DNA from: Bacteroidales bacterium
GTDB taxonomy: Bacteria > Bacteroidota > Bacteroidia > Bacteroidales > ML635J-15
Direction of reading: 5' to 3'
Assembly: GCA_017994175.1 (NCBI GenBank)
Contig: JAGOLH010000002.1
Coordinates: 1 to 64,000 of the forward strand
DNA: 64,000 nucleotides
Each line of letters begins with the position of its first letter. Position 1 is the first letter of the stretch. Position numbers and translations under genes: made by a program. The notes under the pieces are model-generated. The model did no database searches, was not told the DNA's origin, and saw only the letters and a program-made list of their open reading frames with translations. Shown in pieces: positions 5,891 through 32,478 of this stretch.

Positions 5891-8671
5891 ATGAAAAAAC
5901 TGATTTCAAGTTGTATATTTCTCCTTGCAATTGTTTTTCTTGCCACTGCACAAACATATCCCGATTACCTCCCAAACAGGGTAATATTTAAAATTAGACC
6001 CGAGCACAGGAATGCAATTTCTGATAGAAAAGTTCACGACGAAAACTTGAAGTATCTGTTTGAAGAATACCGGGTTTCCGCTTATTATCAGAAATTTATA
6101 GGCAGCAAGGCCCCAGAAACAGAATTCGATAAATATAAGCGTAAAATGATTGATATCAGCACTATATACGAAGCAGAGCTGAATGCTGACATATTTGCAT
6201 TTATCGGTAAACTTGAAAAGCTTGAAATAGTTGAGTATGCTCAGCCACACTACCTTCCACAGCTTCTGTATATCCCCGATGACCCTTATAATACAACAAA
6301 CCAGTTCCATTTGGCAAAGATTATGGCATACGAAGCCTGGGACATTAGCAAGGGCGACAGCAGCATTGTGATAGGTATTACCGACACCGGAACCGACATC
6401 GATCATCCTGACCTTATTTATCAGATTGCCTATAATACCAACGATCCGGTTGATGGAGCCGATAACGATGGCGACGGATTTATCGATAATTTCAGGGGAT
6501 GGGATCTGGCAGAATACGATAATAACCCTCAGGCGGACTCGTCACCGCACGGAACATGGATTACCGGATTAAGTTCTGCAGAAACCGATAATGGTATCGG
6601 GGTTGCGGGTGTTGGTTTTAAATGCAAATACCTCCCTGTGAAGATTTCGGATAACGAAAACCAACTCACTATGGCTTACGAAGGTATAGTGTATGCTGCC
6701 GATCATGGTTGCAAGGTTATAAACTGTTCCTGGGGGGGGAGCCATCGTGATGCTCTGGGGCAGGATGTGGTTGATTATGCCGTAATCAACAGAGATGTAT
6801 TGGTAATTGCCGCCTGTGGGAATACCAACAATCAGATAGACTATTACCCGGCCTCGTTCGACAGGGTTCTGTCGGTAGCAGCAACAACCTGGAAAGATGA
6901 AAAATGGTCGCCACTGAACACACAAACCACCTCGGGAAGCTCCTACAGCTATCGCGTTGACATTTCTGCTCCGGGTGCTATGTTGTATTCCACCGACAAT
7001 GGAGGTTACCTGACCTGCTGGGGAGGGACGTCATTTGCATCACCGGTAGTTGCCGGGGCTGCCGGAGTTTTACGCTCATATTACCCACACCTTTCGGCAC
7101 TGCAGATTGGAGAATTACTGAAAATAAGCTCGGATAACATCGACACAGTGGCATTTAATGAGCCGTTTGCCGGTATGCTCGGAGCCGGAAGAATAAACAT
7201 GTTTAATGCTATAACCGATGAATTCACACCTTCTATTATTATGGAAGATATTGTGGTTGAAGACGATCGTGAAAACAACTATGAGAACTCCACGCTGGTT
7301 AAGGTTAAAGGAAATGTGATTAATTACCTTGCCGATGCCGAAAATGTTGTTGTACAGGTTTCTTGTTCTTCGTTGTTTGTTACCTTACTTACAACACAAA
7401 TCAGCATTGGCGATTTGGCAGCAATGGAGCATTATTCTCTTGATGAACACTCTATTCAGCTGAACATGGCAGCAAGCACTCCCGTTAATACCCCTGTTCT
7501 TCTCAAGCTGCAGTTTACAGCCGATAACTATATTACGGTTCAGAATATCGAGATCACTTTAAACCCCGGATGTAAAAACTTGAATGTTAATGATATCAGT
7601 TTGCCGGTGGCAGCGAATGGCAGGTTCGGCTATTACGATGTTGCACGGAAATTCGGAGATGGTATGGATTATCGTGAATTTGATGACTTATTCAACGATT
7701 GTGGTTTAATTGCAGGAACCGCTTTAAACACCGTGTTTTGCTCCGTAAGGCAGCAATCTGATTTTCTACCGGTAACTTCACCTGTATATGTGAATCCTCC
7801 TGAGTCCGGCGATATGCAAATAAGCTGTTCCATGAACGAATCGAACGATATTAATTCATTGGGGATTACAATTAATCAGAATGTTTACGCTTGGATGGCC
7901 GAAGAATATAAAAATCTTGTAATTATCGATTATAAATTTATCAATACTACAACCATCCCTGTTACGGGGTTATATGCAGGAATATTTGCCGACTGGGATT
8001 TGGTGAACCCGTATGAGAATATTGCTTCATACGACTTTCAGGATAAGTTTATATTTACCCAGCATACAGGCGCAAATACCCTGTATTGTGCGATGAAACT
8101 GTTATCGCCCCAGAATGAAAACCACTATTGTCTGGAACTGGTGAGCGGTGGAGATGGCTTGGTGGATCTTACTGATGGCATGTCGGACAGTGAAAGATTT
8201 TATATAATCTCGAATTCGAGAGATGAAATGCTTACCGACAGCAACGGCGAAGACGCAGCAAATGTGGTTTCAGCAGGCCCTGTGAACATTGCTCCCGCCG
8301 ACACTGCAACCATGGTATTTGCTATGTTTGCGGCCGAAAACTATTTCGACCTCAAACAGACTGCAGAGCATGCGCAGGCGTTGTATAACACTTTGCTTTA
8401 TCCCAATGGTATAACCGCTAATTCGACCGAAGATATTAGGGTATATCCAAATCCGGCTTCCGATTACCTGATAGTGGAAATTCCAGAGGTGTTGCTGCAT
8501 GACGCAGTATCGGTATGTATTACCGATGTCTCTGGCAGGAATGTGTTTTCTGACTGTATTGGTGAAAAAAGGAGTGTTATTGGTTTGCGTTGGCTCAAAC
8601 CGGGAATTTATACGGTGGAGATACGTGCAGGATCAACTCCGTTCGTAAAAAGGATTTCAGTAAACCTATAA
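5891..8671 (+). CDS. Secreted subtilisin-like S8 peptidase with T9SS sorting domain
   Basis: This 926-residue protein has a signal peptide (1-20), an N-terminal propeptide (about 25-125), an S8 catalytic domain (about 135-440), a beta-rich middle, and a C-terminal type A T9SS sorting domain (about 850-926: VYPNPASDYL ... GIYTVEI ... KRISVNL). The catalytic triad is complete: D165 in ITDTGTDIDHPD, H220 in SPHGTWITGL and S381 in GGTSFASPVVAG; the oxyanion Asn is N311 in AACGNTNN. HGTW instead of the usual HGTH is a small deviation. The sequence DGADNDGDGFIDN (about 188-200) is a calcium-binding type loop. Expected route: Sec export, then T9SS to the surface or medium. It is flanked by a terminator upstream and a convergent trmH downstream, so it is a single-gene unit. 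Confidence 0.95.
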   Translation: MKKLISSCIFLLAIVFLATAQTYPDYLPNRVIFKIRPEHRNAISDRKVHDENLKYLFEEYRVSAYYQKFIGSKAPETEFDKYKRKMIDISTIYEAELNADIFAFIGKLEKLEIVEYAQPHYLPQLLYIPDDPYNTTNQFHLAKIMAYEAWDISKGDSSIVIGITDTGTDIDHPDLIYQIAYNTNDPVDGADNDGDGFIDNFRGWDLAEYDNNPQADSSPHGTWITGLSSAETDNGIGVAGVGFKCKYLPVKISDNENQLTMAYEGIVYAADHGCKVINCSWGGSHRDALGQDVVDYAVINRDVLVIAACGNTNNQIDYYPASFDRVLSVAATTWKDEKWSPLNTQTTSGSSYSYRVDISAPGAMLYSTDNGGYLTCWGGTSFASPVVAGAAGVLRSYYPHLSALQIGELLKISSDNIDTVAFNEPFAGMLGAGRINMFNAITDEFTPSIIMEDIVVEDDRENNYENSTLVKVKGNVINYLADAENVVVQVSCSSLFVTLLTTQISIGDLAAMEHYSLDEHSIQLNMAASTPVNTPVLLKLQFTADNYITVQNIEITLNPGCKNLNVNDISLPVAANGRFGYYDVARKFGDGMDYREFDDLFNDCGLIAGTALNTVFCSVRQQSDFLPVTSPVYVNPPESGDMQISCSMNESNDINSLGITINQNVYAWMAEEYKNLVIIDYKFINTTTIPVTGLYAGIFADWDLVNPYENIASYDFQDKFIFTQHTGANTLYCAMKLLSPQNENHYCLELVSGGDGLVDLTDGMSDSERFYIISNSRDEMLTDSNGEDAANVVSAGPVNIAPADTATMVFAMFAAENYFDLKQTAEHAQALYNTLLYPNGITANSTEDIRVYPNPASDYLIVEIPEVLLHDAVSVCITDVSGRNVFSDCIGEKRSVIGLRWLKPGIYTVEIRAGSTPFVKRISVNL

Positions 8672-11413: not shown

Positions 11414-14400
11414 ATGGTTACTGACAACAACAACACAATACGGATTTCGGGTGCGTGCGAAAACAATCTGAAGTCAGTGAGCGTGGAAATACCTAAAAAT
11501 CAACTGGTTGTAGTAACCGGTGTTTCGGGTTCCGGAAAATCGTCGCTGGTTTTCGATGTTTTGGCGCAGGAGGGGCAGCGGCGTTTCCTTGAGACTTTTC
11601 CTTCGTTTTCGCGTTTGTATATGGGAAAAATGAATCGCCCTGCAGTTGGGTTGATCGAAGGTGTATCGCCGGTAGTGTGTATCGGTCAAAAGACGGCAGG
11701 TTCGGGAGTCCGCAGCACTGTTGGAACAATCACCGATATCTACGATATGCTTCGTTTGTTGTTTGCCCGTGCAGGCAAATCGCCGGACGGGACACCCCTG
11801 AAACGCAGTATGTTTTCGTTCAATGCGCCAGAAGGAGCATGCCCGCATTGCAAGGGAACAGGCCTCGAGGAAAAGATATCAGAAGCGAAGCTGGTGGCTT
11901 CCCCCGAAAAAAGCATACGCGAGGGAGCGCTTGCACCTACCTTACCCAACGGATACATTATGTATTCGCAGGTCACTGCTGAGGTGCTCGATACAGTGTG
12001 CCGCGAACATGGTTTTAGTGTGGATATTCCCTGGCAACAACTTTCGCGCGCGCAACAGGAAGTTGTGCTCTATGGAAGTACAAGGATCAAGGTTCCATTC
12101 GGAAAACATCCGCTGGAATCGAGGTTGAAATGGACGGGTATTACTGCCAAGCCCCGTGAAGAAGGCTTCTACAGAGGACTTATCCCTATTATGACTGAAA
12201 TCCTTCAACGCGATCGCAACGATAATATTCTGCGCTATACCGAATCGCTGCCATGCAGCGTATGTAATGGTAAGCGACTGAATAGCAGAGCGTTGTCGGT
12301 AACCGTTGAAGGTGCTACCATACAACAGCTTTCCGAAATGGAGCTTTCTGAATTGAAAGAGTGGTTGTTGGAACATTCGAAAAATGAAGCGGTGCATCCG
12401 GTTTTCATGGCAGTACAGCAATCTGTCTGTCGCAGCATCGAAAATCTGGAGCCTCTTGGGCTTGGGCATCTCAGTTTGTCGCGCCCTGCCACGGCATTAT
12501 CACCGGGCGATATTCAGCGGCTGCGCCTTGTGAATCAATTGAGTAACGGACTAAGCGGGATTATTTACGTATTCGACGAACCCTCGGCAGGTTTACATCC
12601 TGTGAACCTTACAGGGATGATCAGGTTGTTCCGAAATCTGGTGAATACAGGGAACACAGTTATTGTAGTAGAACACGACCCTGCTCTGATAGCTTGTGCC
12701 GACTATATTGCCGATATGGGTCCGGGAGCAGGAACCCATGGAGGAGAAATAGTTTTTGCTGGTTCTTACAGCGATTTTATCGATAACACAACCCTCCAAT
12801 CTGCTACACTGAAGGCAATACGTGAATTCAACAACCCCGGTATAGTATCTTCTGCCGCGTATTCCCCCGGGCAAAGCTTTGTTATTCGTAACTGCCATGC
12901 TTACAACCTTAAAAATATTGATGCAGTTTTTCATTATCAGGCATTAAATATGGTCTGTGGTCCTTCAGGCTCCGGAAAAACAGCACTGGTGGAATTTGAA
13001 CTGGAGCAAAAAGCCTTGCAGTCAATCAGCAACCTAAAACGAGGCAGACCGGAAACGGAAGACCTGAAATTTGACAGAATTATTAAAATTAACCGTCAGC
13101 CTATTGGAAGAAGTCCGCGAAGCAATCCTGCCACTTACACAGGGCTTTCCGACCGCTACCGCGATTTGTTTGCATCTCTGGGCGAGTCGAAAGAAGCAGG
13201 TTTGAGTAAATCGGACTTCTCGTTCAATACAAAAGGGGGCTGTTGCCCGCATTGTGGTGGTGCCGGAAGGGTAAGTGTAGGAATGCATTTCCTTGGTGAT
13301 GTTGACGTGGTATGCCCTGTTTGCAATGGGAAACGATTCAATGCAACGGTGCTTTCGGTGCAATACCGAGGCAAAAATATTGCAAGCATTCTCGATATGA
13401 CGGTAAACGAATCGATTCGATTTTTCGAAGGGCATTCGTCTATACTGCGTCCACTGCTGGCACTCGAAGCCACCGGACTGGGATATATTCAAACAGGGCA
13501 GTCGTCGACTACACTTTCGGGAGGTGAGGCTCAACGTATGAAACTAGCTGCTGAGCTGCAACGGAACGACACGGGTAATACACTATACATTCTCGATGAA
13601 CCCTCTGCAGGACTTCATCCGGCTGATATTACGGTTCTTGCCGGAGCGTTGCGAAAACTTATTTCACGCGGGAATACCGTTGTTTGCATTGAACATGACG
13701 AAACTTTCATCAGGTATGCCGATCATATAGTCGAATTGGGTCCCGGACAAGGCAGGCACGGTGGAACGATAGTAGCATTTGGAACCCCGTGGCAGCTGAT
13801 GTACCACGATGGCTCTGCCAGCCTGCTGAAACCCGAAAATCGAAAGCAATTGCACGAAAAAGGTTTGCTTCATTCACTGCGCAATACGCACATCAGCTTT
13901 AAGGGCATTACGACCTGCAACCTAAAAAATATTGATGTTGACATCCCGCTGGGTGTTCTCACCGCTGTTACCGGAGTTTCGGGTAGTGGTAAAACGTCGC
14001 TTGCGCTCGGGACGCTCTATGCCGAAGCGTTTACCCGCTTTGCCGGAAGTTTGTCGACCTATTCGAGGAGTATGCTGAAACTTTCGAACCGCGCCCGAAT
14101 GGAATCGGTTACCGGTCTGGTACCCTGTGTCGCTGTCAGCCGGAGGTATGTTAGCCATTCTGCCCGCAGCACTGTCGGAACACTTACTGGCATATACGAT
14201 CTGTTCAGATTGCTTTATTCGCGTATTGCCCAGCAACAGGGTATTATGCTGACAGCCGGATTTTTCTCGTTCAACCACCAACCGGGAGCATGCAGTCATT
14301 GCGATGGACTGGGTTATATTTTCACTTGCGATGCCGGTAAACTGATTTCGCATCCCGAAAAACCCATAGGAGCAGGAGCTATGGATGGAAGCCGCCCGGG

Positions 14401-16228
14401 CAGGTTCTATGGTGACCCATACGGACAATACATTGCTGTCCTGAATAAAATTGCATCAGAACAGGGCGTAGATCTGGGTCAGGCATGGGAAAGTCTCCCC
14501 AACGATTTTAAGCAAATTGCACTATATGGTACAGGCAACCGAATTTGGAATGCTGAATGGAAGTTCAAAAATAAAACACGGGAAGGCAGCCATAGTCTGA
14601 GCAATGTTTGGAAGGGATTCTGCAATCTGGTTGATGAGGAGTACCAGCGCCGGCATCTTAACAAAAGTACCGGTGGCACTGAAGACCTGATGATGAAGAA
14701 AAAGTGTAGTGTTTGCGACGGCAAACGGTTGAACAGCGAAGCGCTTTCCATTACTTTTCAGGGTTGCGACATTTCCAGCCTTTCCGATAAAGATATAGGC
14801 AGCTTACCGGGAATATTTTCAAAACCTGTTTCCGGCAATGTATTGCAGGAGGTGGTAAAGGACATCGGGCTTCGCGTTACTGCCATTGCTACTGTCATGG
14901 AGCAACTCGGGCTGGCGTATCTGTCGGCATCGCGTTATTCGGAAAGCCTTTCAGCAGGCGAGTCGCAGCGATTACAGCTTGCATCGGCTTTTTCGGCAAC
15001 ATTAAGCGGAGTATGTTATGTGATCGATGAACCTGCTGCCGGGTTGCACCCCAGCGATGCTGAAAAAATCGGCATTGTTATGCAAACACTGGCAGATGCA
15101 GGCAATACGGTAGTGTTTACAGGACACAACAGTGCTCTTGCTGCGCAGGCTGCCTATGTGGTCGAAATGGGTCCGGGCTCCGGTTCCGAAGGTGGACGGG
15201 TTGTTGCTGCTGGTACCCCTGAAGAACTCAAACAAAGATCAGATTCGGCCACAGCGGCATTGCTCACGCAGGCTATACCCGCAGTAAGACACAATTATAC
15301 CTGCAAAATTTTCGGTTTTGGGGTTGAAAAAGCCAACGCCAATAATTTAAAAAATATTGATGCAGGCTTTGCCCTTGGCGGGATAACTGCACTTACAGGA
15401 GTTTCAGGAAGTGGAAAAACCTCGCTGGTTCGCGATGTACTCTATGCATCAGCTCTTGCAAAGCAACCCGTGCAATGCAGTGGCGTTTATGGTCTTCAAG
15501 AATTTGGAGAAGTGATTTTTATGGCGCAGGGGCAGGGAGCAGGCTCTGCACTGAGTAGCCCTGCAACATTCAGCGGATTGCTCGATAAAATAAGGACCTG
15601 CTATGCATCGACTACTGAGGCGAAAAGCCTTAGTATGAAAGCTTCGCATTTTTCGTATGTTCATGCCGATGGCAAATGCCCTGACTGCAACGGCATGGGT
15701 GAAAGAAGCATTTCGATGGACTTTATGAGTGAGTTGAACATCCCTTGCCCCACTTGCGGTGGAACACGCTACAAACCCCAAAGCCTTGATGTGATGTATC
15801 AGGGAAAAAGCATCGGCGATATTATGAAAACAAGCTTGCACGATGCCATACAGGTTTTTCATGAGAACCCCAAAATTACCCATATGCTCCATATAGCGGA
15901 TGCATGCGGCATTGGTCATCTGCTATTCGGACAGCCACTTACATCACTGTCGGGTGGAGAATACCAGCGTTTGCTACTGGCAAAGCAACTTATGCATCCC
16001 CAAAAGCAAAAATGCCTGTATATTTTCGACGAACCTGCTGCCGGACTGCATCCGTTTGATATTGAAAAGCTGAATGTAATATTTCTTAACCTCGCTGAAA
16101 ATGGCCACAGTGTGGTAATTATAGAACATAACCCAACGATGACAGCCATTGCCGATCAGGTGCTGGAACTGGGTCCCGTCGGCGGCCCTGAAGGAGGGTA
16201 TATTCTGAAAAACCACACATCTGAATAA
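11414..16228 (+). CDS. UvrA-like ABC ATPase, fused tandem dimer with four nucleotide-binding modules
   Basis: The 1604-residue protein is two UvrA-like halves in one chain. Walker A motifs are at about residues 36, 516, 853 and 1328 (TGVSGSGKSS, CGPSGSGKTA, TGVSGSGKTS, TGVSGSGKTS), each with a UvrA NNLKN/YNLKN lead-in, and there are four Walker B motifs of the type Y-(V/I)-x-DEP-(S/A)-AGLHP. Signatures are SPGDIQR, SGGEAQR, SAGESQR and SGGEYQR; the first and third are degenerate. Each half has CxxC zinc-finger pairs such as CPHCKGTG and CPVCNGKR. In both N-terminal modules the chain runs from LLFARAGK or LLYSRIAQ directly to FSFN..GACxHC, so the UvrB-binding domain of classical UvrA is absent, as in UvrA2-class proteins. 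The third module has GH instead of EH before the H-loop histidine. Role in DNA damage tolerance or drug protection is inferred. It is monocistronic. Confidence 0.93.
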   Translation: MVTDNNNTIRISGACENNLKSVSVEIPKNQLVVVTGVSGSGKSSLVFDVLAQEGQRRFLETFPSFSRLYMGKMNRPAVGLIEGVSPVVCIGQKTAGSGVRSTVGTITDIYDMLRLLFARAGKSPDGTPLKRSMFSFNAPEGACPHCKGTGLEEKISEAKLVASPEKSIREGALAPTLPNGYIMYSQVTAEVLDTVCREHGFSVDIPWQQLSRAQQEVVLYGSTRIKVPFGKHPLESRLKWTGITAKPREEGFYRGLIPIMTEILQRDRNDNILRYTESLPCSVCNGKRLNSRALSVTVEGATIQQLSEMELSELKEWLLEHSKNEAVHPVFMAVQQSVCRSIENLEPLGLGHLSLSRPATALSPGDIQRLRLVNQLSNGLSGIIYVFDEPSAGLHPVNLTGMIRLFRNLVNTGNTVIVVEHDPALIACADYIADMGPGAGTHGGEIVFAGSYSDFIDNTTLQSATLKAIREFNNPGIVSSAAYSPGQSFVIRNCHAYNLKNIDAVFHYQALNMVCGPSGSGKTALVEFELEQKALQSISNLKRGRPETEDLKFDRIIKINRQPIGRSPRSNPATYTGLSDRYRDLFASLGESKEAGLSKSDFSFNTKGGCCPHCGGAGRVSVGMHFLGDVDVVCPVCNGKRFNATVLSVQYRGKNIASILDMTVNESIRFFEGHSSILRPLLALEATGLGYIQTGQSSTTLSGGEAQRMKLAAELQRNDTGNTLYILDEPSAGLHPADITVLAGALRKLISRGNTVVCIEHDETFIRYADHIVELGPGQGRHGGTIVAFGTPWQLMYHDGSASLLKPENRKQLHEKGLLHSLRNTHISFKGITTCNLKNIDVDIPLGVLTAVTGVSGSGKTSLALGTLYAEAFTRFAGSLSTYSRSMLKLSNRARMESVTGLVPCVAVSRRYVSHSARSTVGTLTGIYDLFRLLYSRIAQQQGIMLTAGFFSFNHQPGACSHCDGLGYIFTCDAGKLISHPEKPIGAGAMDGSRPGRFYGDPYGQYIAVLNKIASEQGVDLGQAWESLPNDFKQIALYGTGNRIWNAEWKFKNKTREGSHSLSNVWKGFCNLVDEEYQRRHLNKSTGGTEDLMMKKKCSVCDGKRLNSEALSITFQGCDISSLSDKDIGSLPGIFSKPVSGNVLQEVVKDIGLRVTAIATVMEQLGLAYLSASRYSESLSAGESQRLQLASAFSATLSGVCYVIDEPAAGLHPSDAEKIGIVMQTLADAGNTVVFTGHNSALAAQAAYVVEMGPGSGSEGGRVVAAGTPEELKQRSDSATAALLTQAIPAVRHNYTCKIFGFGVEKANANNLKNIDAGFALGGITALTGVSGSGKTSLVRDVLYASALAKQPVQCSGVYGLQEFGEVIFMAQGQGAGSALSSPATFSGLLDKIRTCYASTTEAKSLSMKASHFSYVHADGKCPDCNGMGERSISMDFMSELNIPCPTCGGTRYKPQSLDVMYQGKSIGDIMKTSLHDAIQVFHENPKITHMLHIADACGIGHLLFGQPLTSLSGGEYQRLLLAKQLMHPQKQKCLYIFDEPAAGLHPFDIEKLNVIFLNLAENGHSVVIIEHNPTMTAIADQVLELGPVGGPEGGYILKNHTSE

Positions 16229-16401: not shown

Positions 16402-17214
16402 ATGATTTTGGATGAAACCTTTGCTTTATTAAAAACCCGCTACGAGAACCGGTTCAATTCAACACGCATCGAAAAAGTGCAGATTGGCGTTTGCTTTGCT
16501 GCTGTGCAATTATCGAGTGGATATTGCGGTCTGTCGAGTGTAGATTCCGCCAGTGTAAGCTGCTGTACTGGAAAACGGATCAGAGAAAACCTTCCTTTTA
16601 CACCGGGAAACATATGCGGGCAAAAACTACTTGACTTGTTTTCATGTCCACTGGAATCAAGAACGCTCGATATTGTAAGAATGGCAGCAATGAATGCTGT
16701 TTCGCAGGAACTGATAGCATCGGAAGATTATACCATTGTTGAAGACAAAGACCCTATTGAACTTGTTGATTTACAAAGCAATAAAATAATTTGTATTGTA
16801 GGCGCATTTCATAGTTACATGAAAACTATTTCACAAACACAATCAACGTTGGTTGTTATCGAAATGAATGAGTTGGCAATCCCCGATGAATATAAGCAAT
16901 GCTATGTTCCTGCATCGAAGGCAGCTTCGGTTTTTCCTGAGGCTGACACGATTATTATTACGGGATCTACTTTAGTAAACCGTACACTTGATTTTGTAGT
17001 CGAGTCTATTCCTTCTGGTAAGCAAGTAATCCTTGTGGGTCCGACTGCAGGGTTAATTCCGGATGTGTTGTTCCGGCATGGTATTCAGGTTATCGGGGCA
17101 ACACGGGTTGCCGATCCGGAAAGGGTAATGCAAGCTATTGCTGAAGGTGCAGCCGGTTACCATTTATTTAGAAACGGAGCGCAGAAAATATGCATAATGA
17201 ATAATGCAAAATAA
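16402..17214 (+). CDS. DUF4213/DUF364 domain protein (putative metal chelatase-like)
   Basis: The 270-residue protein has an N-terminal DUF4213-type part (about 1-90, with LSSGYCGLSSVDSASVSCC) and a C-terminal DUF364 part (about 115-260, IICIVGAFHSY ... ADTIIITGSTLVNRTLDFVVES ... VGPTAGLIPDVLF). DUF364 is described as a putative heavy-metal-chelation domain, and such genes occur beside molybdenum-hydroxylase or metal-uptake genes. Several cysteines (C33, C42, C54, C55) lie in the N-terminal part. The next gene overlaps this one by 11 bases, so the products are probably linked in function. The substrate metal is not known. Confidence 0.82.
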   Translation: MILDETFALLKTRYENRFNSTRIEKVQIGVCFAAVQLSSGYCGLSSVDSASVSCCTGKRIRENLPFTPGNICGQKLLDLFSCPLESRTLDIVRMAAMNAVSQELIASEDYTIVEDKDPIELVDLQSNKIICIVGAFHSYMKTISQTQSTLVVIEMNELAIPDEYKQCYVPASKAASVFPEADTIIITGSTLVNRTLDFVVESIPSGKQVILVGPTAGLIPDVLFRHGIQVIGATRVADPERVMQAIAEGAAGYHLFRNGAQKICIMNNAK

Positions 17215-18958
17215 AACACTGTCGGATACATGGCTTAAAGCGTCGGTGCTCGGATGCCTATGGGCATCTTCCGAAATTGTACTCGGTAGCTTTTTGCATA
17301 ACCTGAAAGTGCCGTTTGCCAGCAATTTTCTTACAGCAATAGGGATTATTCTGTTGATTTCGGTGAGCTATATCTGGAAAGACAGGGGTTTGATATGGCG
17401 TTCCGGTATTATTTGTGCCCTCATGAAAGCGGTTTCGCCCAGCGCTGTGATACTGAGTCCGATGATAGCAATTTTTTTTGAAGCGCTCCTGCTCGAATTT
17501 GCTGTGACAATTTTTCGAAAAAATATTTTCGCATATCTTGTTGGCGGAATGCTTGCCATGTCGTGGACCTTTGTGCACAAAATTGCCGCATATCTGATTA
17601 TATACGGGTTCAACCTGGTGGAACTGTACAGGAATCTGGCAATCTTTGCCCAAAAACAACTGCACATTCAAATAGAAAACATTTGGTCACCGGTGATTGT
17701 GCTTTGGTTATTGTACGGACTGATGGGTATAATTGCAGCAATACTTGGAATTTATATCGGTAAAAAGGCAATTAAAACTCCGCTCCAAAACAATTTATTC
17801 AGAGGAAACAATGTATATCGGAACCCTGCACCCAAACCGGTTCAAGTATTTAAACATTCATTGATGTGGTTGATTGTGAATGGTATCAGTATGATAGGAG
17901 TGCTGCTTTTGATGAACTATGCTCACTGGATATGGTGGAGCAGCGCAGGTGTTGCCATAGCATGTGTATGGGCTATAAAATACAGGAATGTTTTACACCG
18001 TTTGAAAAAACCGGGCTTCTGGTTGTTTTTTGTTGCTATTACCATGATAAGCAGTATTCTGTTTTCGAAATTCAGCGCCAATACTGTAAGTTGGATTGAT
18101 GGGCTGATGATTGGATTGCAGATGAACGTGAGGGCTGTAATAATGGTCATGGGATTTGCAGTTATCGGCACCGAACTGAGTAATCCTGTTATCAGGAATT
18201 TCTTCGCCAGAACCCCGATGCGACAAGTTACACCAGCACTTGAAACAGCATTCGAAACTTTACCTTATGCAATATCGTCGTTACCCGATATTAAAATGGT
18301 TTTCCGTAAGCCGGTTTCAATAATCCAGCAAATTGTAATGCAATCGGAGTACTTGCTTGAAAAAATTAAATTAAAGCAATTTGGCAAAGAGAATGTTGTA
18401 ATTATCACAGGCGAAATTCATCAGGGTAAAACATCTATTTTACAAGCATTAATACCTATGTTTAAAGAGCAAAACCTTGTTGTGGGTGGAATTATTTCAC
18501 CGGGTATTTTCGAAGATAATATGCGCATTGGTTACGATATAATTGATGTTGCTACCGGAGAAAGGAGGGTGTTGTCGCGAACGACAGGCAGCGAAAATAT
18601 GATTCAGATAGGAAAATATTTTTTACACGACGAAGGTTTGGTATTTGGAACAACAGCCCTTTCGGTGGAAAATAACTGGAATTCAAATATGATAGTTGTC
18701 GATGAAATAGGACCAATGGAACTCGACAATCAGGGTTGGGCGCAAAGCGTGGGAGAATTGTTACAAGCCTTTGATGTGCCGATGATTTTTGCTGTGAGAA
18801 AAGGTATCATTGAGCAGGTAACTGAAGAATGGGCTATTACAGATCCATTGATTATTGATGCTGAAAAATGCGATACGACAATGGCATTTTCTTTAATTTC
18901 TAATTTTTTTAAAAACAAAAAAATGAATACCGTATCCGAACATTATGTGAAGGAATGA
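17204..18958 (+). CDS. Membrane protein with ECF-transporter-like segments fused to a THEP1-type NTPase
   Basis: The 584-residue protein has three parts. Residues about 10-190 form roughly six membrane helices resembling a small S-component. Residues about 215-385 form further helices ending in a cytoplasmic helical stretch (GLQMNVRAVIMVMGFAVIG ... LETAFETLPYAISSLPD) that resembles an EcfT-type coupling domain. Residues about 395-570 are a P-loop NTPase of the THEP1/NTPase_1 type with Walker A GEIHQGKTS (about 403-411) and Walker B MIVVDEIGPMEL (about 495-506). The DUF364 gene overlaps its start. A chelated-metal or cofactor transporter driven by an unusual NTPase is my inference; the THEP1 domain call is firm, the ECF resemblance is by eye only. 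Confidence 0.75.
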   Translation: MQNKTLSDTWLKASVLGCLWASSEIVLGSFLHNLKVPFASNFLTAIGIILLISVSYIWKDRGLIWRSGIICALMKAVSPSAVILSPMIAIFFEALLLEFAVTIFRKNIFAYLVGGMLAMSWTFVHKIAAYLIIYGFNLVELYRNLAIFAQKQLHIQIENIWSPVIVLWLLYGLMGIIAAILGIYIGKKAIKTPLQNNLFRGNNVYRNPAPKPVQVFKHSLMWLIVNGISMIGVLLLMNYAHWIWWSSAGVAIACVWAIKYRNVLHRLKKPGFWLFFVAITMISSILFSKFSANTVSWIDGLMIGLQMNVRAVIMVMGFAVIGTELSNPVIRNFFARTPMRQVTPALETAFETLPYAISSLPDIKMVFRKPVSIIQQIVMQSEYLLEKIKLKQFGKENVVIITGEIHQGKTSILQALIPMFKEQNLVVGGIISPGIFEDNMRIGYDIIDVATGERRVLSRTTGSENMIQIGKYFLHDEGLVFGTTALSVENNWNSNMIVVDEIGPMELDNQGWAQSVGELLQAFDVPMIFAVRKGIIEQVTEEWAITDPLIIDAEKCDTTMAFSLISNFFKNKKMNTVSEHYVKE

Positions 18959-19018
18959 TAATTTTATTATCAGGTAGTTTAAATATTCGATAAGTACTGT
19001 CAAGGAGTTTATATAGAA

Positions 19019-19606
19019 ATGAGTGATAATTTTTCAACGATAATATTGGCATCGGGAATGTCCGGAAGAATGGGTGAGCCAAAAGCCTTGCTGAGGTGGG
19101 ACAGTTCTTTTACTTTTCTCGAAAAAATTGTTGATGTATTTGTAAGAGCCGGCAGCAGCAACATAGTTTGTGTAGTGAACAAGGCTGCTGAGCCATATTG
19201 TATTGGGCTTAAGTTGCCTTCATGCGTAAGTATTGCAACAAACAATCATCCCGAGTGGGACAGGTTTTATTCTGTAAAAACAGGCATTCAACATGTGAAG
19301 GACACAGACTATTGTTTTATCCATAATGTTGATAATCCTTTTATAACGCCTGAAATTGTAAAAGAAATTTTCGCATCGAGAATGCCCGGGGCATGGTGTT
19401 CACCGGTTTTTGAGGGAAAAGGGGGGCACCCCGTTCTTTTATCTAAAACGATATATAGCAGAATTACCAATAAAATGCCGGACGAAACCAAGCTTAAAGA
19501 TTTTCTATTCCCATTTCCCCGCATCATTGTTGAAACCGACAGCGATTGTATTCTGCGTAATATTAACACTCCCGACGATTACAAAAGGCTTGTTGCGCAA
19601 CAATAA
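19019..19606 (+). CDS. MobA/MocA-like nucleotidyltransferase
   Basis: The 195-residue protein has the NTP-transferase motif LASGMSGRMGEPKALL at about 10-25 (consensus LAAGxSxRMGxxK), followed by the Rossmann-like nucleotide-binding domain with HNVDNPF (metal-binding DxP-like region, here about 101-107) and GKGGHPVLLS. The family includes molybdenum cofactor cytidylyltransferase (MocA) and guanylyltransferase (MobA). With XdhC convergent 9 bases downstream, a MocA-type role (MCD cofactor for a xanthine dehydrogenase family enzyme) is most likely. Ser for the usual Ala in LASG and NVDNP for DxP are mild deviations. CTP versus GTP preference cannot be told by eye. Confidence 0.85.
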   Translation: MSDNFSTIILASGMSGRMGEPKALLRWDSSFTFLEKIVDVFVRAGSSNIVCVVNKAAEPYCIGLKLPSCVSIATNNHPEWDRFYSVKTGIQHVKDTDYCFIHNVDNPFITPEIVKEIFASRMPGAWCSPVFEGKGGHPVLLSKTIYSRITNKMPDETKLKDFLFPFPRIIVETDSDCILRNINTPDDYKRLVAQQ

Positions 19607-19615
19607 ACTTTCAGT

Positions 19616-20386
19616 TTATTTTTTGTCTTTTGTGTTTTTTACATCAATTAGTTTTGCCAGAATGCTGATGGCTATTTCGGCCGGGGCAATGGCATTGAAT
19701 TTAATGCCGATTGGCATATCAACGCGGTTGAGTTCTTCTTCGGTGAGAATGTTATCTTGAAGGAAAGCTTTCCGCAATGTGGCAATTTTCACCTTACTGC
19801 CAATCAGACCCAGATAGGCCATTGACTTCTTACCCAGCACAGCAAGAATTTCTTCATCCATGTCATGGTTGGGTGTAACAATTACACAGTAGGTGCTGCT
19901 GTCGGGCTGAATTTCGCTTGCGACTTCAAGGTAGGGTTTACACACTTGCGTGTAGTGTATGGCATCGGGATTTTCGAAAATATCGCTCCTCCAGTCGATA
20001 AGCGTTGTTTCAAACCCAAACTCGGGGGCATATCCGGCCAATACCTTACCGATATGTCCGGCTCCGAAAATAAAAAGTTTTGCCGGCTTCGCTATCGGTT
20101 CGATGTAAACACACAGTTTGCCGCCGCAAGTCATCGCCAGGTCGGTTTGCAGGTTATATTCCCTGAATAGGGTCGATTGAGTTCTGATTACTTCGAGCGC
20201 ATCGGCAATCACCTGCTTTTCGATTCCACCACCACCCACAGTTCCTTCGATTGCCCCATCGGAAAACACCACCATTTTGGCACCGGCTTTTCCGGGCGTA
20301 GATCCGCTCATTGAGGTAACAATGCACAACGCTGATGCACGAGTATCTTTGTAATAATCCGAAATCTTTAAAAGTAAGTTTTTCAT
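19616..20386 (-). CDS. xdhC: XdhC/CoxI family molybdenum hydroxylase maturation factor
   Basis: XdhC binds molybdenum cofactor, promotes its sulfuration and delivers it to xanthine dehydrogenase-type enzymes. The 256-residue protein has the N-terminal XdhC_CoxI domain with SGSTPGKAGAKMVV (about 27-40), GTVGGGGIE (about 48-56) and MTCGGKLCVYIEP (about 84-96), followed by a Rossmann-like C-terminal domain with IFGAGHIGKVLA (about 105-116) and GLIGSKVK. A TAGATTTG box at 20409-20416 gives its own promoter. No hydroxylase structural gene is in the window, so the client is encoded elsewhere or just absent here. Confidence 0.92.
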   Translation of the reverse strand: MKNLLLKISDYYKDTRASALCIVTSMSGSTPGKAGAKMVVFSDGAIEGTVGGGGIEKQVIADALEVIRTQSTLFREYNLQTDLAMTCGGKLCVYIEPIAKPAKLFIFGAGHIGKVLAGYAPEFGFETTLIDWRSDIFENPDAIHYTQVCKPYLEVASEIQPDSSTYCVIVTPNHDMDEEILAVLGKKSMAYLGLIGSKVKIATLRKAFLQDNILTEEELNRVDMPIGIKFNAIAPAEIAISILAKLIDVKNTKDKK

Positions 20387-30399: not shown

Positions 30400-32478
30400 T
30401 TATTGTACAACTATTCTGCCCTGATAGGTATAATCTTGTGAGTATAGATGGTATATATACATTCCTTCCGAAATATGGCCGATGTCGATGTGGTGATCCT
30501 CCGGTAAAAATTGTTGGAGGAGCAATTTCCCCTGTACATCGTAGAGTTCGATTTGTATTGGCTGGGCCATATTTCCGGTGCGGAATTCAATAAAATTGTC
30601 AGCAGGGTTTGGAAATACCGAAATATTCTCTGTTGCTCCGATAGGGTTGCCCACGAACTGAGTAGAGTAATTCAGGCTGAATCCCCCTGCGCGGGTATTC
30701 CCGTTGGCTTTAAAATTCACTGTAATTTTATACGCTTCAATGGTAAGAACATCAGGTAGGGTACTCCCCGAGTAGGTAGCAACTGTTTGCGAAGACTGAT
30801 TGAGTATTTTTACATAATCATAAACAGGCTCCAGATCGAAATCGGTGAATTCAACCGTGATGCTTTGGGCGTTTTCGGGTTCAATATACCAGTAGCAGGT
30901 TGTATTATTCTGATAATTATACTGGTTGCTGCCGTCAGAAACGGTTCCTACCGGTTCCGAAATATGGGTTACCAGCGGACAGTACACAGGCTTAATACCT
31001 TTGTACGATAGGAGAAACCCGTCACCATTCAGGTCATTGTCCGTAACAAAACGAATCAGCACCTCATCGGAAGTGCTTTCAAATGTTGCAGGGATTGTGT
31101 TCCCTGAAAAAACTCCCAACACCTGAGCCTCATCGGTAGGTCCATCGAAAATGGTTATAAAATCGTTAGGGTCGGTTTGCAGTTTTAAAAATTCAAATTC
31201 AATTCCATTGGCCGAGTCGTTTGGTTGAATGAGCCATTCGCATTCCGTACCGGCTTCGTAATCGAAAAGAGGTCCGCTGCCGTCATCGATGGTACCTGCT
31301 GTAGTTGTCAGAATTTTTTGGGATTGACAGCCCTGCGGATAGATACCCGAAGGTACTGCGTTCACAATAACTTCGTGCAGCAAAGTGAAGTCGCTTCCAC
31401 CGGGTGTAAGGTTGTCGAGGTAGAAATACCCGTCGTAACTTCCGCCCCAACCCCAATTGAAATGGTAATAATCTTCGGTTTGGTAGCCGTCAACAATAAA
31501 TGCATGACCCGATACAAACTCGTAATCGCTCCAACCGGCATAATAAAGCGGGATTCTCTGATCGAGGTGCTGAATTAATGTGCCTTTCCAGTCGAAATCT
31601 TCCGGAAGACTGTCGCGGAACAGATAGGTGGTTTCATCATCGTAACCGAAGTAGGTGTGGAGTGTGTAGGCTCCTTTGTGATTCCACATTCCCGATCCAT
31701 CGGGACCGTAATTCATATCCACAGAAACGCCGATGTTATAAATTAACCGTGCCACATCATCGTTGAAATCGGTAAGTTCTACCGCCATCTGATCGTAATT
31801 ATAGTTTTGTTGCGAAAAGTCAACTTCAATCCATCCATAATCGTCGTGCTGATATCCATAAGAACCGGTTCCCTGTTCAGGATATCTGAAATAATTCAAC
31901 AATTGCCCCAATGCAGTTGCAACACAGCCGGTAACAACATGACCACCCGGTCCTGCACCGTCAGCAGGGCACATGGCATTGTAATACAACCCCTGATTCC
32001 ATTGGGTAAACAACATAGGCGTCACCCCTGTTTTCACCGATTTAACTAGACTACTGCTTTCTCCCTGCAAATGCGACCACATTGCAGCAATATTTTCATC
32101 AACCAATGTTTGATTATCAATCACATGGGCAATTTGTACTGCATAATTATCGAGCCATGTAGCGCAGGAAGAATTCATTTCAGCGGGAACTTGGGCTTCT
32201 GCAAATGAATAACCCAGCACCGGAACCACCTTTTCACTTTCCGAAACAATTACAAATCCTGAAGGATTCATTGCACAAATTGTATATACAGCTTTGCCGT
32301 TATGCATCCGCGTTTCGGTTGATACAACACTGATATCATCGTAATGAACACTTTTAAAAGCATTTGCCTGCTCATAATAGAAATTTCTGGCTACAATTTC
32401 AGTTCTTTTATTTTCGTTGGATTGTGCAAACAAAACTGCAGCAAATAATAACAATGCAAGGGTAATATATACTCTCAT
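30400..32478 (-). CDS. Secreted C10-family cysteine peptidase (streptopain-like) with CUB and T9SS domains
   Basis: The 692-residue protein has a signal peptide (1-19), a Spi-type inhibitory pro-region (about 25-140), a C10 peptidase domain with nucleophile C185 (VVTGCVATALGQ) and H325 (SGHAFIVDGY) followed by HFNWGWGGSYDGYF, then two CUB-like domains (about 385-500 and 502-610, each starting with a cysteine and containing FITIFDGP or YVKILN), and a T9SS sorting domain (about 615-692: VFPNPADNFIEF ... GMYIYHLYS). It is synthesised as a zymogen and sent out by T9SS. Its start is three bases after the malic enzyme stop, so it is likely read through from that operon. Confidence 0.94.
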   Translation of the reverse strand: MRVYITLALLLFAAVLFAQSNENKRTEIVARNFYYEQANAFKSVHYDDISVVSTETRMHNGKAVYTICAMNPSGFVIVSESEKVVPVLGYSFAEAQVPAEMNSSCATWLDNYAVQIAHVIDNQTLVDENIAAMWSHLQGESSSLVKSVKTGVTPMLFTQWNQGLYYNAMCPADGAGPGGHVVTGCVATALGQLLNYFRYPEQGTGSYGYQHDDYGWIEVDFSQQNYNYDQMAVELTDFNDDVARLIYNIGVSVDMNYGPDGSGMWNHKGAYTLHTYFGYDDETTYLFRDSLPEDFDWKGTLIQHLDQRIPLYYAGWSDYEFVSGHAFIVDGYQTEDYYHFNWGWGGSYDGYFYLDNLTPGGSDFTLLHEVIVNAVPSGIYPQGCQSQKILTTTAGTIDDGSGPLFDYEAGTECEWLIQPNDSANGIEFEFLKLQTDPNDFITIFDGPTDEAQVLGVFSGNTIPATFESTSDEVLIRFVTDNDLNGDGFLLSYKGIKPVYCPLVTHISEPVGTVSDGSNQYNYQNNTTCYWYIEPENAQSITVEFTDFDLEPVYDYVKILNQSSQTVATYSGSTLPDVLTIEAYKITVNFKANGNTRAGGFSLNYSTQFVGNPIGATENISVFPNPADNFIEFRTGNMAQPIQIELYDVQGKLLLQQFLPEDHHIDIGHISEGMYIYHLYSQDYTYQGRIVVQ

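Follow-up and report, generated by a model that had tools for sequence, protein, structure and literature searches.

A 64,000-nucleotide stretch of Bacteroidales DNA, hereafter the window, encodes a protein in which two membrane modules, S and T, are joined in one chain to a THEP1-type P-loop NTPase. What does this protein carry, and what powers it? For the protein and its relatives we computed architecture, relationship to EcfT, gene neighbourhoods, riboswitch and genome distribution; the direction of transport, the substrate, the energy coupling and the roles of the S module and of the neighbouring DUF364 protein are inferred. Sequence comparisons lead us to favor, with somewhat better than even confidence, the reading in which the fusion is the inner-membrane component of an importer that salvages molybdenum cofactor (Moco) or molybdopterin and would be driven by THEP1 instead of EcfA.

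The genes of the locus are listed in Table 1. The fusion reading frame begins inside the DUF364 frame, and the overlap noted in the initial annotation measures 11 bp. Both PF04016 and PF13938 score above their cut-offs in the DUF364 frame, making it a clear family member, and its gene is probably the first of the operon. The MocA/MobA-like gene lies 60 bp downstream of the fusion gene, and its product matches TIGR03310 (MocA) with E = 3e-29, a score below the equivalog cut-off. The XdhC gene is convergent with this side of the locus. All three neighbours point to a Moco context. Two further genes of the window stand apart from this locus. One (11414-16228, + strand) encodes a 1604-aa UvrA-like protein, an apparent tandem of two UvrA units far above the usual UvrA length, and the other (30400-32478, - strand) encodes a C10-family peptidase with a Spi-type inhibitor domain, CUB domains and a type IX secretion tail.

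Table 1. Features of the fusion locus, in coordinates of the window
Feature	Position	Strand	Description
DUF4213/DUF364 protein	16402..17214	+	270 aa; PF04016 E 3e-41, PF13938 E 2e-6
S-T-THEP1 fusion	17204-18958	+	584 aa; candidate Moco/molybdopterin importer
S module	17216..17818	+	residues about 5-205; candidate substrate-binding part
T module	17816..18370	+	residues about 205-389; EcfT-related coupling/translocation module, without the EcfT arginine motif
THEP1-type P-loop NTPase domain	18398..18814	+	residues 399-537; PF03266
MocA/MobA-like nucleotidyltransferase (Moco cytidylyl- or guanylyltransferase)	19019..19606	+	PF12804 E 2e-22
XdhC/CoxI-type molybdenum-hydroxylase maturation factor	19616..20386	-	PF13478 E 2e-30, PF02625 E 9e-19

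The C-terminal domain of the fusion is the only part that Pfam recognizes, with a match to PF03266 (NTPase_1/THEP1) at E = 1.4e-23 and 84.1 bits against a cut-off of 23.9. Its Walker A (GEIHQGKT) and Walker B (IVVDEIG) motifs are both intact. Among homologues, Walker B (DE[IV]G) is kept in 36/36 and Walker A in 32/36, and two of the four exceptions are truncated reading frames. Two THEP1 proteins of solved structure, 1ye8 (E = 3e-14) and 2i3b, are also matched by the family profile. The window protein has the same P-loop domain, but in the solved members it stands alone, whereas here it is joined to a transporter by fusion or within an operon.

Residues 1-390 consist of membrane segments and have no convincing Pfam or NCBIfam family match. 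Conservation in the homologue alignment is highest in S, where mean column identity reaches 64%, compared with 51% in T and 44% in the NTPase. Conserved residues of S are W20, E24, G28, L31, H32, P37 and K75, and the motif W...E...G..LH....P..G and one lysine are kept in a wide family alignment. An AlphaFold model built from two sequences had a pLDDT of 40.

We found matches to the fusion in 19 of 61 genomes, drawn from its own genome, the same family and the same order. Most are full-length, with 30-52% identity. Since full-length homologues occur in many Bacteroidales, the fusion is no annotation or assembly artefact, and the three-part chain of membrane modules and THEP1 NTPase described in the initial annotation is a real and conserved reading frame. 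A profile of the S module identified 39 convincing carriers among 395 genomes of the phylum. Plasmid and viral collections returned no full-length relative. The adjacency of DUF364 and fusion genes, which had been proposed as something to look for in other genomes, is seen again at eight further loci (L024-L026, L028-L032).

The modules occur in several arrangements. In the window type, S, T and NTPase are fused in that order. N-S-T fusions are found in L082 and L083, while L084-L086, L089 and L090 have an S-T gene of ~360 aa followed by a THEP1 gene. Separate genes for S, T, a TonB-dependent receptor and THEP1 are present in L076-L080, and likewise in L086 minus THEP1. In L038 and L039, S-T lacks the NTPase and is flanked by MobA and a molybdenum oxidoreductase operon, and the S-T genes of L091-L093 have no NTPase nearby. 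Because the NTPase and S-T are linked in several orders, these data suggest that they work together. On a tree of S, the arrangement changes seven times, compared with 17 times when labels are shuffled, and the NTPase-less L038 and L039 are nested among fused forms. The initial description of the system as self-contained was too strong, given that relatives add a TonB-dependent receptor and that some have no linked NTPase.

Two side observations concern these loci. One genome (G413, locus L086) holds two paralogous systems, at 6663-7825 and 17881-19405; the one under riboswitch control lies beside NapA and the other beside a xanthine dehydrogenase (XDH) gene, and the two might differ in the nucleotide form of the cofactor that they serve. 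In genome G236, which has XDH and lacks MoaC and MoeA, a stand-alone THEP1 gene (L121, 5817-6320) sits in a neighbourhood like that of L085 minus the S-T gene.

EcfT is the scaffold of vitamin importers, and in the usual ECF transporters EcfA ABC ATPases supply the energy or gating. We compared T with a set of 12 annotated EcfT/CbiQ proteins, reached through a search with an EcfA-type consensus. With all 30 T sequences, hhalign gave a probability of 61.8% and a score of 36.6, against 21.2 for the best of 150 block-shuffled controls. When the six split T proteins were compared with the 12 EcfT proteins, the probability rose to 83.7% and the score to 43.5, against 23.9 for the best of 200 shuffles. 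Shuffled EcfT controls reached a probability of at most 4%, and reversed and unrelated membrane profiles stayed under 1%. Across the last membrane helix and the coupling region, split T and EcfT align in register. Fused, window-type T alone aligns weakly over the same region (1.6%), and it would thus be tied to EcfT through the split members. Pfam CbiQ is touched by 7 of the 30 T sequences, at E = 0.085 or worse. These comparisons support the EcfT-like coupling segment that had been proposed, by way of the split relatives.

The invariant arginines of EcfT lie opposite non-conserved T positions, so the arginine coupling-helix motif is not kept. No EcfA/A' ABC ATPase was identified among the neighbouring genes examined, and the fused or adjacent nucleotide-binding domain is NTPase_1. 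Taken together, the loss of the arginines and the absence of a neighbouring EcfA would fit coupling to THEP1 rather than to EcfA, which agrees with the earlier suggestion that THEP1 stands in EcfA's place. The N-terminal half had also been likened to an S component, and for this no such backing was found: S-bearing proteins have no Pfam match, no NCBIfam match at the curated cut-off and no PDB match by sequence. Against BioY-type S and CbiM, S scored 0.2% by hhalign, a comparison covering few of the very diverse S components. The term S-component-like is plausible from context. The likeness to ECF transporters (EcfT PF02361, S and EcfA/A') lies in a membrane substrate module joined to an EcfT-related coupling module, and, for the vitamin importers, in riboswitch control and a cofactor-type context. 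The differences are that S matched no known S family in these searches, that THEP1 replaces EcfA, that the EcfT arginine motif is not kept and that the system is often one chain (S-T-N or N-S-T) working with a TonB receptor. On present sequence evidence we call the system ECF-like and do not file it as a proven ECF transporter.

Gene neighbourhoods connect the family with molybdenum. TonB receptor genes precede the S-T-NTPase fusion directly in L034 and with DUF364 between them in L026; in L032 the order is TonB receptor, DUF364, fusion, MoeA and a MogA-like gene. L038 and L039 read MobA, S-T, molybdoenzyme, FeS protein and NrfD. Members of the MobA/MocA family lie beside the fusion or S-T in L035, L038, L039 and L091; in L080 the neighbour of such a gene is the NTPase. 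In L041, THEP1 is encoded on its own, two genes away from XdhC::MocA, 2Fe-2S and XDH genes. NapA, NapD and FeS genes adjoin S, T, receptor and NTPase genes in L077, and similar NapA-type operons are found in L076 and L086. Molybdenum oxidoreductases lie beside the system in L079 and L080, and the XDH gene in L086 adjoins the second S-T-NTPase set.

The DUF364 family adds to this context. The first structure paper of this family, on Dhaf4260, inferred a flavin- or pterin-like ligand and noted that DUF364 genes elsewhere adjoin genes for the transport of rare metals (molybdate, tungstate) (PMC2954201). The window gene belongs to the same family (PF04016); here it is tied to a membrane NTPase module, not to an ABC transporter. 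ModABC, WtpABC and TupABC operate in the same metabolic area, but they are unrelated proteins and import the oxyanion.

We observe a Moco riboswitch (RF01055) directly upstream in 6/6 split operons (L076-L080, L086), with 53-97 bits against a gathering threshold of 36. It stands directly before S except in L080, whose aptamer is almost canonical and where one small gene intervenes. That gene encodes a carboxymuconolactone-decarboxylase-like protein. Proteins of this kind, ~109 aa long, are encoded directly before S or S-T in L080 (10162-10491), L084 (8193-8516), L085 (8712-9041) and L090 (1741-2085), all on the - strand. Scans for RF01055 at the window locus and at the other loci gave no match, and the riboswitch is confined to one branch of the family. 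In E. coli, control by this riboswitch needs MoeA activity, indicating a response to the completed cofactor instead of molybdate (PMC2408646).

Vitamins and metals of many kinds are cargo of ECF-like systems, and in L084, L085 and L090 nucleotide-sugar genes adjoin the system. The protein might then import some other metal chelate or vitamin, with the molybdenum link incidental. We regard this as very improbable, given that all six riboswitches are of the Moco class, that Moe, Mob and Xdh neighbours recur and that the association with molybdoenzymes across genomes is strong.

That association was measured in a draw of 395 genomes of the phylum and among the relatives. Genes are counted as absent on the basis of profile searches, and the genomes are drafts of mostly more than 95% completeness. 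A molybdoenzyme was defined as a match to PF01568 or PF20256, minus ActB-like frames of 1000-1050 aa. We rejected the weak PF01568 matches in those frames; three that were checked lack PF00384, and their layout is presumably that of ActB of alternative complex III. We gave up MoaE as a marker, since few Bacteroidales have it even when they carry both MoaC and MoeA: among 61 Bacteroidales relatives, MoaE (PF02391) was found in 3, compared with 17 each for MoaC and MoeA. Molybdopterin synthase may be diverged, or of a different kind, in these Bacteroidales.

Of the S carriers in the phylum draw, 26 lack MoaC, which is present in 229 genomes of the draw. S is thus commoner where MoaC is absent (Fisher odds ratio for MoaC 0.32, P = 0.0018). 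Among MoaC-negative genomes, molybdoenzymes occur in 28/34 S carriers but in only 4/45 genomes without S (P = 2e-11), or 5/46 when one doubtful case is counted. The 28/34 divide into 20/26 in the phylum draw, which alone gives P = 7e-9, and 8/8 among relatives. Molybdoenzyme-positive S carriers without MoaC span 15 families, so the association is not that of one clade. In the six other S-positive, MoaC-negative genomes, searches for the two families gave no molybdoenzyme. MoeA is also absent from 30/34 S-positive, MoaC-negative genomes and present in all MoaC-positive controls searched alongside, which indicates that the MoaC absences are real. Twenty-four genomes have molybdoenzymes without the early (MoaC) or the late (MoeA) step of Moco synthesis. 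In 15/28 cases S lies no more than 17 kb from a molybdoenzyme gene, compared with a chance expectation of about 4% each.

If the protein imported molybdate, tungstate or a metal chelate, cofactor would be made inside the cell by Moa and Moe proteins or their replacements. This is nearest to the initial view, and the placement of DUF364 genes beside metal transporters in other organisms would agree with it, as would the control of molybdate transporters by the Moco riboswitch in other bacteria (PMC2408646). Among the relatives, moreover, S carriers are enriched for MoaC and MoeA (12/19 compared with 6/42, P = 2e-4). Across the phylum, however, the trend is the reverse, and carriers that keep molybdoenzymes while lacking both MoaC and MoeA, the latter needed for metal insertion, would find metal alone useless. 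We consider a metal importer possible but unlikely. The molybdenum link proposed initially holds, and because most carriers without MoaC and MoeA keep molybdoenzymes, the data favor a pterin cofactor, Moco or molybdopterin, over a molybdenum or tungsten chelate. No strong ModB/WtpB match came from the eight S-positive, MoaC-negative relatives, whereas the genome of the window has one, as do seven further carriers with MoaC.

The same counts bear on two other proposals. A membrane factor for maturation or insertion, or an exporter or flippase moving Moco to periplasmic enzymes such as NapA, would account for the adjoining NapA and polysulfide-reductase-type operons, MobA and XdhC. But S is absent from 216/229 MoaC-positive genomes, so it is no general maturation factor; XDH-type genes co-occur as well, and import is in keeping with TonB receptors and a feedback riboswitch. 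This proposal appears quite unlikely. The other is that MoaC-negative carriers use an unrecognised new route of Moco synthesis in which the membrane protein moves an intermediate. Orphan molybdoproteins have earlier been taken as a sign of unknown synthesis parts or of molybdenum-free forms (PMC6147048). Against a new route, an early step and a late one are both lacking, and it is transport proteins that recur as partners; we give it hardly any weight.

Under the favored salvage reading, a TonB-dependent receptor would carry a form of Moco or molybdopterin over the outer membrane, and S would bind it with its membrane segments, through their conserved E, H and K. Release into the cell would be driven by T, the EcfT-related module, with energy or gating supplied by the fused or adjacent THEP1 NTPase, as EcfA does in ECF transporters. 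MocA/MobA, XdhC and probably DUF364, for which we suppose a part in cofactor processing, would adapt the cofactor and pass it to molybdoenzymes. Because MoeA is missing from most MoaC-negative carriers, the imported form should already bear metal there. Metal-free molybdopterin would do in a few, such as G050, where MoeA and a MogA-like gene directly follow; with MoeA in that position, as at L032, it may be the imported form. Free Moco is oxygen-labile, which counts against its import. In outline, the scheme resembles B12 salvage by BtuB-BtuCD, with a TonB receptor, an inner-membrane pump and a riboswitch that senses the imported cofactor, but the inner-membrane proteins are unrelated and the cofactor is different.

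The riboswitch, the TonB receptor, the EcfT relationship and the molybdoenzymes in genomes that do not make Moco would be explained together by a Moco importer. We see an even chance that this is the first recognised bacterial importer of intact Moco: a pump of a new S family, EcfT-like and THEP1-powered, fed by a TonB receptor and repressed by the Moco riboswitch, whose hosts are Moco auxotrophs living on cofactor leaked by neighbours. Our literature search, with subscription papers outside its scope, found no bacterial Moco importer. A 2018 survey left unexplained several hundred prokaryotes with molybdoenzymes but an incomplete Moco pathway (PMC6147048), and dietary Moco uptake is known in C. 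elegans (PMC9793310). If the reading is true, a salvage importer would explain many orphan molybdoenzymes of Bacteroidota, Moco would be an exchanged nutrient like vitamin B12, the uptake in C. elegans would have its first bacterial counterpart, and an ECF-like pump would be run by a non-ABC NTPase.

The window's own genome encodes XDH-type enzymes and, on another contig, MoaA-, MoaC-, MoeA- and MOSC/MogA-type genes together with ModB/ModC-like genes. A search of this genome for MoaE gave no match, which may reflect a diverged MoaE rather than a defect, since MoaE is generally rare in these Bacteroidales. The region on the other contig (C95; L098, 2549-11270) appears to encode a likely TonB receptor, a putative sulfite-oxidase-type protein, ModB/ModC-like proteins, MoeA, MoaA, MoaC and a MOSC-MogA fusion. 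MoaA is short there (266 aa), no MoaD or MoaE was seen, and assignments beyond MoaC, MoeA and ModB were made by eye. With its own MoaA, MoaC and MoeA and a ModB/WtpB-like permease, this genome has no obvious need for salvage, and the system would probably give it a second, at most supplementary, supply of cofactor.
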